NCBI RefSeq assembly: GCF_003633755.1
Contig: NZ_RBIL01000002.1
Location: 1,550,001 to 1,614,000 of the forward strand
Length of the DNA: 64,000 bases
Reading direction: 5' to 3'
DNA from: Solirubrobacter pauli
GTDB taxonomy: Bacteria > Actinomycetota > Thermoleophilia > Solirubrobacterales > Solirubrobacteraceae
Positions 55,129 to 58,944 of the stretch are shown here, in pieces. Both the position numbers and the translations under genes were made by a program. The notes beneath the pieces were generated by a model, which made no database searches, had not been told where the DNA came from, and worked only from the letters and a program-made list of their open reading frames with translations. Each line of letters opens with the position of its first letter. Position 1 is the stretch's first letter.

Positions 55129-55920
55129 TCAGAGGAAGGCCCGGATGGCGTCGATCGTCTCCTGCGGCGCGCTCAGGTTCGGGCAGTGGCCGGTGGCCGC
55201 CATCCGCACGAGCACGGAGCCCGGGATCTGCGCGTGCACGTAGTCGCCGACGGGCGTCGGCGCGATCACGTCGTCGCTGCACTGGAGCACGAGCGTCGGG
55301 ACGTCCACGTCGTCGAGGTCCGCCCGGTTGTCGGACAGGAACGTCACGCGCGCGAAACGGGCCGCGATCTCCGGGTCCATGCGGCAGAAGCTGCTGGTCA
55401 GCTCCTCCCCCAGCTCCGGGCGGTCGGGGTTGGCCATGATGACCGGGGCCATCGCACTCGACCAGCCGAGGAAGTTGCTGTCCATGGAGTCGAGCAATTC
55501 CGCAATGTCCTCCTGCTGAAACCCTCCGACGTAGCCGTCGTCGTCCAGGTAGCGGGGGGACGGTCCGATCAGGACGAGCGTGCCGATCGCGTCCGGGGCG
55601 CGCTTCGCCGCGAGGACGCCGATCATCGCGCTCACGGAGTGGCCGACGAACACGGCGTCGGAGAGGTCCAGCGCGCGGCAGATCTCGACCACGTCGTCGG
55701 CGTACCCGGCGAGGGTGCCGTACCGCTCGGGGTCATAGGCCCCCGGGTCCGAGCCGCCCGCGCCCACGTGGTCGAACAGCACGATCCGGTGGTCGGCCGC
55801 GAACGCCGGCGCGACGAAGCGCCACATGTTCTGGTCGCAGCCGAAGCCGTGCGCGAAGAGGATCGGCCGCGCATCCGATTGTCCACCGACATGGACGTTG
55901 TTGCGTTCGAGAACGCTCAA
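55129..55920 (-). CDS. Alpha/beta hydrolase, RsbQ-like
   Basis: A 263-residue hydrolase with FAHGFGCDQNMWR, nucleophile in GHSVSAMIG (about 95), acid in CSDDVIAP and His in TGHCPNLSAP; the GHSVS elbow and overall layout are those of RsbQ. RsbQ is thought to supply or modify a small ligand for the PAS domain of RsbP, which is encoded next. TTG start at 55920; a GCGTTC-GA-GAACGC palindrome lies in its first codons. Confidence 0.87.
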   Translation of the reverse strand: MSVLERNNVHVGGQSDARPILFAHGFGCDQNMWRFVAPAFAADHRIVLFDHVGAGGSDPGAYDPERYGTLAGYADDVVEICRALDLSDAVFVGHSVSAMIGVLAAKRAPDAIGTLVLIGPSPRYLDDDGYVGGFQQEDIAELLDSMDSNFLGWSSAMAPVIMANPDRPELGEELTSSFCRMDPEIAARFARVTFLSDNRADLDDVDVPTLVLQCSDDVIAPTPVGDYVHAQIPGSVLVRMAATGHCPNLSAPQETIDAIRAFL

Positions 55921-55958
55921 GCCGCCTGGAGTTTAAGAACCCCGGCCGCTTGGGCGCC

Positions 55959-55982
55959 AAAGTGTACGCATGCTGACACTTT
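55959..55982. promoter_or_regulatory. Perfect AAAGTGT/ACACTTT dyad
   Basis: Seven-base perfect arms separated by 10 nt, 38-62 bp upstream of the rsbQ-like start and just before the structured plus-strand region. The spacing of about one and two-thirds helical turns between arm centres suits a dimeric regulator; it could equally be an RNA hairpin. Confidence 0.45.
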
Positions 55983-56114
55983 AGGTTCTCTGGACATTCA
56001 TCCGATTTGGATTACTTCGTCCAGCCCGCATTATGTGTCCAGTCGAAGGGAACACACCTCAAGGTCTCGGAAACGGCGTTGCAGCGCCATTTTCGAGCGG
56101 GAAAGGAGCCTGTC

Positions 56115-56132
56115 ATGGGTTGGAAGATGTAA
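56115..56132 (+). CDS. Five-codon micro-ORF (MGWKM)
   Basis: ATG to TAA with AAAGGAG ending 6 nt before the ATG, an optimal Shine-Dalgarno arrangement and stronger than that of most genes here. It is followed 20 bp later by the terminator stem. It may be a leader-like peptide or a ribosome-loading device controlling the RNA fold. Confidence 0.35.
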   Translation: MGWKM

Positions 56133-56152
56133 TCCACGACCAGCTTTGCGAG

Positions 56153-56183
56153 CGAGCGCCTCAGTGGCGCTCGTTCTCTTTAA
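56153..56183 (+). terminator. Intrinsic terminator
   Basis: CGAGCGCC-TCAGT-GGCGCTCG (perfect 8-bp stem, 5-nt loop) followed by TTCTCTTTAA. The T-rich side is on the plus strand, so it terminates the plus-strand structured transcript; on the minus strand it could help end the HD-GYP gene. Confidence 0.7.
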
Positions 56184-56219
56184 CGGCCAGTTCGTCGCAT
56201 CCCTTGATCGAACGAACGT

Positions 56220-57590
56220 CTACGCCGCCGCAAGCCTGGGCTGGGCGTAGTCCGCGACGCGCTTCTCGAAGGCCAGCTCGGCCTCGAAGTCGACCTCGTC
56301 GGTGTGGCTGAAGGCCACGCCCTTCTCGAGGATCATCCGCTCGAAGACGTCGACCACCGCGGGGTCCAGCTGCGTGCCCGCCACCCGACGCAGCTCCGCG
56401 AGCGCCGCCTCCGAGCTGACGGGGCGGCGGTAGGAGTCGCGCGAGGTCATGACGTCGTAGGTGTCGGCGACGGACAGGATGCGCGCGCCGAGCGGGATGT
56501 CCTCGCCTGCGATGCCGGCCGGGTAGCCGCCGCCGGCGAAGCGCTCGTGATGGTGCAGGACGATCTCGGCCACCGGACCGTAGCCCTCGATGCGCTCGAC
56601 GAGCTTGGCGCCCTGCTCCGGATGGAGCTTGATCAGCTGCCACTCCTCGTCGGTCAGCTTGCGGTTCGCGAACAGCACGGAGTCCGGGAGGATGAACTTG
56701 CCGATGTCGTGCAGCAGCGCCGCGGTGTGGATGAGGTCCTGCTCGCGCGCGTCGAGGCCCAGCATCGCTGCCACCTCGCGCGAGTAGCGGGCCACTGCCG
56801 CCGAGTGGCGGGCCGTCATCGCATCGCGCATCGACAGCGTCTGCAGCACCGTCGAGAGCAGGCCCATCTGCAGCGACGCGAGCTCGCGCGTCCGCTGCTC
56901 GAGCTCTTCGCCGCGCTCGTCCGCCGCGATGCTCGTGCGGACGATGTACAGGAACACGAACAGGACGACCGCGGCCAGCGCGATCGAGCCGATGCCCAGA
57001 TAGGCGTAGGTGAAGGCGACGCTGGCGGTCAGCAGCGCCGTCGCGAACTCCGAGGGCAGCGCGGTGACGAACGAGCGCAGCATCAGCCGCGGCGGGACGT
57101 CGTAGGCGAACCAGCTTCCCGCCGCGACCATGGCGAAGTTCAGCGCGTTGGCCAGCAGGAACGTCGTGAGGACGACGGCGCCGAACCACAGCGCCTCGCT
57201 GCCGCCGACCTCGAAGTCGCCGGCCAGCGCACGGATCGTCAGCCCGCCCACGAGCGGGAAGACCGCGAAGGTGGCGAGGTTCGTGATCGTGCGATCGATC
57301 GACCGGCGGGAGATCACCGCGTCGACGACCGAGCACGCGACGCCCATCACCGCCGCGGGCGCGGGGCCGAGGAGCGCCATCGCCAGCACGAGCGCGAGGA
57401 ACGAGCCCGAGAGCCGCAGGCCCCGGAGCTCGAAGCTCAGCATCTCGCTGCCGGCCGCGAGGACGAACAGCAATCCGAACAGCGACAGCGACTGCCAGTC
57501 ATCGGCGCGGCTCACCAGCGCAGCACCCGCCAGCGCGCACGCGAGTAGCGTGGCCGAGACAAGGGACAAGGTGACCTGGCGCCGAGGCAT
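56220..57590 (-). CDS. Membrane HD-GYP c-di-GMP phosphodiesterase
   Basis: A 456-residue protein with about seven to eight N-terminal membrane helices (residues ~6-225), a short coiled coil (about 235-255) and an HD-GYP domain. The HD motif is LLHDIGKF, then HPEQGAKLVE, and the GYP motif is HHHERFAGGGYPAGIAG. It hydrolyses c-di-GMP. The ATG at 57590 (MPRRQVTLS) follows GAGGGTGAG. With the EAL protein at 5.4 kb this is the second c-di-GMP hydrolase in the window. Confidence 0.9.
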   Translation of the reverse strand: MPRRQVTLSLVSATLLACALAGAALVSRADDWQSLSLFGLLFVLAAGSEMLSFELRGLRLSGSFLALVLAMALLGPAPAAVMGVACSVVDAVISRRSIDRTITNLATFAVFPLVGGLTIRALAGDFEVGGSEALWFGAVVLTTFLLANALNFAMVAAGSWFAYDVPPRLMLRSFVTALPSEFATALLTASVAFTYAYLGIGSIALAAVVLFVFLYIVRTSIAADERGEELEQRTRELASLQMGLLSTVLQTLSMRDAMTARHSAAVARYSREVAAMLGLDAREQDLIHTAALLHDIGKFILPDSVLFANRKLTDEEWQLIKLHPEQGAKLVERIEGYGPVAEIVLHHHERFAGGGYPAGIAGEDIPLGARILSVADTYDVMTSRDSYRRPVSSEAALAELRRVAGTQLDPAVVDVFERMILEKGVAFSHTDEVDFEAELAFEKRVADYAQPRLAAA

Positions 57591-57648
57591 CCACTCACCC
57601 TCATCGGCACCACTCGGAAATTCCGAAGGCAAATTTTCGACGAGAGAC

Positions 57649-58944
57649 GTGGTTGTCCTCCAAGCGGGGTACAGTGCCCCCGGAGTGCGGAGGCGCCTTG
57701 AACCGCTGCGGGTGCGGCCGTTCGGCCAGTTGCTGGGGTCGTACACGGTCAACGACTTGGGGGACTCGATCGGGGTCGTGGCCCTGTCGATCCTTGTCTT
57801 CGACCGAACGGGTGATGTCGCGCCGACCGCCGGCTTCTTCCTGGTGGCCAAGTTCCTGCCCGCCCTGCTCTCCACCGGGCTGACGGCGCACCTGGACCGG
57901 ATGTCGCTGCGCCGCGTGCTGCCGGCGATCTACGTGATCGAGGCGCTCGTGTTCGCCGCGCTCGGCTTCCTGGCCATCGGCGACCGGTTCTTCCTGCCGC
58001 TGATCCTGCTGCTGGGGCTCGTGGACGGGACGCTGGCGATCACGGGGCGCGGGCTCACCCGCGGGGCCGTCGCGGCCACGCTGCAGCCGCACGGGCTGAT
58101 CGCCGAGGGCAACGCGCTGATGAACCTCGGCTTCGCGGCGTCGTCGGTGTTCGGTGCCGCGCTCGCGGGCGCGCTGATCGCGGCCTTCGGGGTCTCCACC
58201 GCGCTGTTCGTGGACGCCGCGTCGTTCCTGATCATCGCGGCGCTGCTCGCGAGCACCCGCCAGCTGCCGCAGGTCGAGCACCACGAGTACGAGCCCTGGC
58301 GCACGCGTTTCCGCGCCGGGCTCTCGTTCGCGCGCTCGCACCCGCTGATCCGCACGCTGCTCGTCGGCCAGTCGCTCGCGTTGATCTGCTTCACCGTCGT
58401 CGTCCCGATCGAGGTCATCTACGCCAAGGAGTCGCTCGGCACCAACAGCGCCGGGTTCGGGCTGCTGCTGAGCGCCTGGGGCGCCGGCATCGTGCTCGGC
58501 TCGCTGCTCTACATCGGCCTCAAGAACCGCTCCGGGTTCGGGCTGATCGTCTTCTCCAGCGCGATGGTGGGCGTCGCCTACCTCGGGATGTCCCAGGCGC
58601 ACGTGCTGTGGCTCGCGTGCGCGATGTCGGTCGTCGGCGGCGCCGGCAACGGCATCCAGTGGGTGGCGGTGATGACCGCCATGCAGGAGGCGACGCCGCC
58701 GGAGTTCCAGTCGCGGATGTCCGGGCTGCTGGAGTCGATCGGCGCCGCGATGCCGGGCATCGGGTTCCTGCTCGGCGGCGTGCTGACGGTGCTGGGCTCC
58801 CCGCGCACCGCCTTCGCGTTCGCGGGCGCGGGGATCCTGCTGCTGGCCGGCCTGGCGCTGCTGCTACGGCCGGCGGCCGAGCGGCGCGCTCAGACCTCGA
58901 CCACGACCGGCAGCACCATCGGGCGGCGCTTGAGCCGGTCGTAG
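57649..58944 (+). CDS. MFS transporter
   Basis: A ~431-residue major facilitator with about 12 helices of the EntS/macrolide-efflux-like type (LLGSYTVNDLGDSIGVVALSILVF; HLDRMSLRRVLP loop between helices 2 and 3). GTG 57649 is the earliest plausible start; a later GTG near 57687 would also keep helix 1. The last ~18 residues are hydrophilic and are encoded on the strand opposite the rnj 3' end, with a 55-bp overlap. Substrate unknown. Confidence 0.86.
   Translation: MVVLQAGYSAPGVRRRLEPLRVRPFGQLLGSYTVNDLGDSIGVVALSILVFDRTGDVAPTAGFFLVAKFLPALLSTGLTAHLDRMSLRRVLPAIYVIEALVFAALGFLAIGDRFFLPLILLLGLVDGTLAITGRGLTRGAVAATLQPHGLIAEGNALMNLGFAASSVFGAALAGALIAAFGVSTALFVDAASFLIIAALLASTRQLPQVEHHEYEPWRTRFRAGLSFARSHPLIRTLLVGQSLALICFTVVVPIEVIYAKESLGTNSAGFGLLLSAWGAGIVLGSLLYIGLKNRSGFGLIVFSSAMVGVAYLGMSQAHVLWLACAMSVVGGAGNGIQWVAVMTAMQEATPPEFQSRMSGLLESIGAAMPGIGFLLGGVLTVLGSPRTAFAFAGAGILLLAGLALLLRPAAERRAQTSTTTGSTIGRRLSRS

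Follow-up and report, generated by a model that had tools for sequence, protein, structure and literature searches.

In the window analysed here, a 64,000-nucleotide stretch of Solirubrobacter pauli DNA (contig NZ_RBIL01000002.1), a plus-strand unit of approximately 55963–56187 lies between two minus-strand genes, one encoding an HD-GYP phosphodiesterase (56220–57875) and the other an RsbQ-like hydrolase (55129–55920), behind which is an RsbP-like gene. The flagellar genes fliM, fliY, and cheY are nearby. The unit carries a strong ribosome-binding site, the five-codon open reading frame (ORF) ATG-GGT-TGG-AAG-ATG-TAA, and an 11-pair hairpin, and we consider a very short peptide, not a purely non-coding RNA, to be its probable product. 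The Shine-Dalgarno (SD) sequence AAAGGAG, read from the sequence at 56102–56108, precedes the ORF ATGGGTTGGAAGATGTAA (56115–56132), which encodes MGWKM followed by a stop codon; a terminator-like hairpin (56150–56176) and its tail (to 56187) lie beyond it on the same strand. A preliminary description had placed an undescribed small RNA with these elements at 55985–56183, and all of the elements that it named are present. It was also right that the plus strand has no gene after the unit; the HD-GYP gene is antisense. The feature is real, but its conserved upstream part (from approximately 55963) had been missed.

Similar micro-ORFs were found beside many HD-GYP genes. A search of 146 genomes of the taxonomic family with the HD-GYP protein gave matches in 75 genomes (101 rows), and the downstream DNA was read for 69 of the 101 matches: those of seven Solirubrobacter genomes, 60 new regions, and two more (the counts 69 and 101, and 6 and 26 below, were tallied by hand from listings). 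A strict rule (ATG or GTG start, SD match of at least 5/6, 5–6 codons, an aromatic residue at position 3, and a basic residue at position 4) found a micro-ORF in 21 of the 60 regions, and 200 shuffled sets gave an average of 0.035 and a maximum of 2. Control DNA of 241.5 kb yielded six strict hits, every one of which was the same element. When the peptide was ignored and all SD-led ORFs of 5–8 codons were collected, residue 3 was aromatic in 26 of 33 beside HD-GYP genes. The control DNA gave 5 of 30, and each of these five was the element itself. Under relaxed rules, 37 of the 69 HD-GYP genes have an fM-x-[WFY] ORF (fM, formylmethionine) beside them; these 37 loci comprise the strict set, the seven Solirubrobacter first-HD-GYP loci, and loci gained by reading wider regions, by relaxing the SD or position-4 rule, or by admitting a TTG start (one case). 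Six or more genera of this family of soil bacteria have the micro-ORF. A purine-rich SD sequence precedes it in 37/37 loci, and its length is five codons, with one locus of six. In six regions of one genus, divergent micro-ORFs occupy the same place (MAKWPHY, MAEWPRG, MVIVSWPRW, MRKPHGG, MEPHGK, and MIRSK).

The micro-ORF family has the pattern of a 5–6-codon ORF for fM-[GSAV]-[WFY]-[KRH]-x-stop. The S. pauli genome (7.1 Mb) contains just two matches to the family pattern, both beside HD-GYP genes, and the reversed pattern gave none in seven genomes. At the order level, a pattern search of 232 genomes gave 10 matches in 9 genomes (reversed control, two in one genome), and the matches in two other genera adjoin HD-GYP genes. 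A spread beyond the taxonomic family was rejected, as the strict pattern had two matches when the phylum was sampled with 395 genomes from outside it, and the reversed control also had two. Separately, an SD-led MGWRN-stop in S. phytolaccae and S. soli (L177 and L183) has no HD-GYP gene beside it and lies in unrelated surroundings, and is possibly a chance occurrence.

The variation among the 37 loci points to the peptide. Position 3 is W in 20, F in 13, and Y in 4, and position 4 is K in 22, R in 8, and H in 3. Glycine is encoded by GGT or GGC, lysine by AAG or AAA, and serine by AGC, AGT, or TCT, and the stop codon is TAA, TAG, or TGA. Since the codons vary synonymously, selection acts on the peptide, and it is well supported that the ORF is under selection for its translated product. 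Twenty-four of the units are convergent on the end of the HD-GYP gene, and the other 13 are on the same strand, 84–360 bp past the matched end; the unit is tied to the HD-GYP gene, irrespective of strand. In S. pauli itself, a second HD-GYP gene (C1:3507348–3508667) has the micro-ORF MGFKF on its own strand, and a third close one (C1:1996295) has none. MGFKF or MGFKY on the HD-GYP strand accompanies the second HD-GYP gene in five Solirubrobacter genomes (L119, L120, L126, L128, and L125, the last being C1:3506690–3507420 of S. pauli), most with sigma28-like boxes upstream as read by eye.

When 61 genomes were searched at the DNA level, the unit was found in all six other Solirubrobacter genomes among them (E values of 2e-49 to 3e-8), and an HD-GYP gene adjoins the unit in all seven genomes of the genus. 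An exact-pattern scan of contigs for the hairpin found seven stretches, all from Solirubrobacter, with two in Candidatus S. pratensis. The aligned copies share an upstream palindrome, a TGGAC..TCCGATT motif, the leader, the SD sequence, the micro-ORF, and a near-invariant hairpin with GTTAACGG. The ORF reads MGWKM in the window, S. phytolaccae, and S. soli, MSWKI in S. taibaiensis, MGWRF in sp. CPCC 204708 and S. deserti, and MSWKF in the HD-GYP-linked copy of S. pratensis. The second copy of this species adjoins cheY, has no HD-GYP gene beside it, and retains neither the motif nor the stop codon (MGSEVC...); we counted this loss in favour of the tie to HD-GYP. At the DNA level the unit is single-copy in the S. 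pauli genome, and a mobile or multi-copy element was therefore rejected, though inverted GGAC..GTCC motifs flank the unit. A degenerate element at a second HD-GYP gene of S. soli (L191, last 300 bases) keeps the leader hairpin and has lost the micro-ORF and the terminator. The stress module RsbQ/RsbP, to which the preliminary description drew attention, is indeed adjacent in the window, but it adjoins the unit in just 2 of the 7 genomes (the window and S. phytolaccae), and the stress link therefore looks incidental.

The predicted fold of the plus-strand RNA is better than chance: 55985–56190 reaches −81.2 kcal/mol (z −4.0; 0 of 200 shuffles as good), and the trimmed RNA 56012–56190 has z −2.8 (1 of 200). 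The leader hairpin (56066–56097, plus strand; UUGC/UUGCAG loop) shows two-sided changes in 8 of its 13 pairs over seven copies, and none of 500 shuffles reached the covariation score of this hairpin together with the terminator. The 11 pairs of the terminator-like hairpin are formed in 98.7% of cells in the seven copies. The strong terminator of the preliminary description thus stands as a conserved hairpin, but its U-rich tail is only moderately U-rich in the window, and the tail of the relatives, GTTCTCGTTAACGG, has no long U run. A switch in which ribosome occupancy would decide whether TGGATTAC (from 56008) pairs locally or with GTAATCCA (56128–56135) had also been proposed. Both sequences exist, but such a switch is not supported: the adjoining long closing stem is paired in 60% of cells, it does not stand out in covariation (38 of 500 shuffles reached the score of the structure tested), and neither in S. 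soli nor in sp. CPCC 204708 could its outer arm, judged by eye, be aligned into a stem.

The leaders vary from lineage to lineage. Those of one genus (g14) gave no consensus fold, and the common core is therefore the SD sequence, the ORF, and the following hairpin. Across the compared genera it is the ORF that is conserved and not the RNA fold, a point missed in the preliminary description. The g14 unit has a promoter-like pair, TGGACA and TAnTAT spaced by about 17 (boxes read by eye), followed by AACCTACTCA, which fits independent transcription.

Candidate control elements precede the leader in the window. A TGT-N10-ACA palindrome (55963–55978, no strand given) is equally spaced in 6 of 7 aligned copies and was not seen in the first S. 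pratensis copy; we take it to be a possible CRP/FNR-type operator. On the plus strand, TGGACATTCATCCGATTT (55991–56008), a GGAC-N4-GTCC palindrome followed by CCGATTT, is kept in 6 of 7 copies and altered in the second S. pratensis copy. It is possibly an operator and a −10 region, the latter possibly sigma28-like. The TGGAC..GTCCGATT motif of the same positions recurs inverted at approximately 56200–56222, past the hairpin and at the end of the HD-GYP gene; relatives show the inverted recurrence too, as does a different genus (L114). A further GGACGAACGTCCGATT site in S. pauli (near C1 2243390; L034:1460–1560) directly follows a gene and has a GC hairpin beyond it; no micro-ORF was seen there, and the site may mark a further small transcript that belongs to this regulon.

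The partner protein (56220–57875, minus strand; conserved stretch 56223–57590) is a predicted HD-GYP phosphodiesterase with a predicted N-terminal S-component-like membrane domain. It matches Pfam HD_5 (E 5e-41), the HDIGK and HHE..G.GYP motifs are conserved, and the catalytic residues are invariant across 15 aligned sequences. Its HD-GYP relatives in the PDB (to E 2e-44) act on cyclic di-GMP (c-di-GMP) or 3'3'-cGAMP. The first 200 residues have no Pfam model and are predicted to form a helical domain (mean predicted local distance difference test 79; predicted template-modelling score 0.50). The model compared well with NikM2, FolT, RibU, ThiT, BioY, and others (VIA Z 12.8–16.4), Foldseek support for the S-component fold was weak (E 0.013), and the FolT-family model of NCBIfam scored 15 bits against a cut-off of 60. 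The domain is predicted to have the fold of energy-coupling factor transporter S-components/NikM. Because S-components bind small molecules, a peptide ligand for the domain is conceivable, and we counted this sensor-like domain in favour of an action of the micro-gene on HD-GYP.

With moderate confidence, we interpret the unit as a stand-alone micro-gene for a leaderless pentapeptide that is maintained by selection and most likely acts via the neighbouring HD-GYP protein. A short RNA (approximately 56010–56185) would be made from its own promoter, would end at its own hairpin, and would carry one strongly initiated five-codon ORF. The product would be a leaderless formyl-pentapeptide (fMGWKM here), which might act on or through the adjoining phosphodiesterase, perhaps by binding or regulating its sensor domain. 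The sequence comparisons show conservation, peptide-level selection, linkage, and one covarying leader hairpin; that the unit is transcribed and translated, and that it acts on HD-GYP, we infer. More tentatively, fM-G-[WF]-[KR]-x may be a signal read by the S-component-like domain, tuning the levels of cyclic dinucleotides. Several observations weigh against the micro-gene reading. Such an ORF is absent beside 26 of the 69 HD-GYP genes and divergent beside six more, one S. soli HD-GYP gene (L191) has a degenerate copy without the ORF, HD-GYP proteins without a micro-ORF share the same N-terminal domain, and the linkage may in part be inherited synteny. A simple scan called neither a terminator nor a plus-strand promoter at the unit.

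The leading rival is that the unit works through the behaviour of the ribosome on the ORF and not through a free peptide. The ribosome would pause or drop off at the aromatic-basic codons, and when parked there it would control the stability, folding, or 3' end formation of a regulatory RNA. The strong SD sequence, the structured leader, the position of the ORF near the 3' end, and the conserved hairpin behind it agree with this, as does the early peptidyl-tRNA drop-off documented in E. coli, as outlined in PMC10192219. We nevertheless regard it as rather unlikely, since the leaders have no common fold between lineages, no downstream same-strand gene is available for control, and the linkage to HD-GYP in both orientations is left unexplained. 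The covarying leader hairpin could instead belong to a base-pairing small RNA (sRNA) in which the ORF is incidental; it might be antisense to the HD-GYP end or act on flagellar mRNAs like the sigma28-dependent sRNAs, a view to which the nearby fliM, fliY, and cheY and the sigma28-like boxes of the MGFKF group (read by eye) also lend themselves. Between genera, however, the ORF persists where the leader does not, and its variation is synonymous, which makes this improbable. Furthermore, 13 of the 37 units are on the HD-GYP strand against 24 convergent ones, and antisense action therefore cannot be general. That a conserved terminator region between convergent genes merely contains a chance ORF is highly improbable; short SD-led ORFs do occur in ordinary DNA (the 30 of 5–8 codons in the controls, of which five are the element), but the shuffle, control-DNA, and reversed-pattern controls disfavour it.

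The comparative evidence for the pentapeptide micro-gene is of a five-codon ORF kept across genera beside a c-di-GMP-type phosphodiesterase, below the length floors of two published surveys of short ORFs (6 and 10 residues). To our knowledge, such pentapeptide genes would form the shortest conserved protein-coding gene family. If the signal reading is true, the peptide and its receptor would be a pair that needs no processing, and a ligand role would provide a defined, testable input for these HD-GYP proteins; if the unit is a ribosome device, amino-acid-level selection would have been demonstrated on a minigene. In either case, other signalling families can be scanned in the same way for ultra-short SD-led ORFs next to their sensor genes.

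The unit was not assigned to a known Rfam family, c-di-GMP riboswitches included: the window has no match at the gathering score, 55880–56260 has none up to E 10, and 13 homologous loci have none. The suggestion in the preliminary description of an undescribed small unit is supported, and the five-codon ORF is genuine. A literature search with largely abstract-level coverage found no description of an HD-GYP-linked micro-ORF. The cat leader pentapeptide and the E-peptide of 23S rRNA are five-codon minigenes or leader peptides that affect the ribosome; unlike them, the present unit is conserved and separate, with no resistance gene downstream. It also differs from a leader-peptide transcription attenuator in having no same-strand regulated gene, HD-GYP being antisense here and in 24 of 37 loci. 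We know of no selected micro-ORF in MotR or FliX. These sigma28-dependent flagellar sRNAs, as summarized in PMC10578931, resemble the unit in a possible link to the flagellar regulon, for which the boxes here were read by eye. Dual-function sRNAs are likewise small, structured, transcript-like units with an ORF under selection, but the survey of peptide-coding and dual-function sRNAs outlined in PMC5521070 considered ORFs of 10–50 residues, whereas the ORF here has five codons and is consistently tied to a single gene family. Among known systems, the unit comes closest to the leaderless communication peptides (SIP/LCP) encoded beside their receptors, which have a similar gene logic. As described for the SIP/LCP peptides of Firmicutes, which work with RopB (summarized in PMC10518010, a survey of ORFs of 6–100 residues), an ultra-short SD-led leaderless ORF lies beside one kind of regulator or receptor gene, in variable orientation and in many variants. 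Here the ORF has five codons in place of 8–9 residues, the phylum is a different one, the peptide is a putative signal, and an HD-GYP protein carrying a membrane domain takes the place of the RopB/Rgg-type (RRNPPA) regulator.
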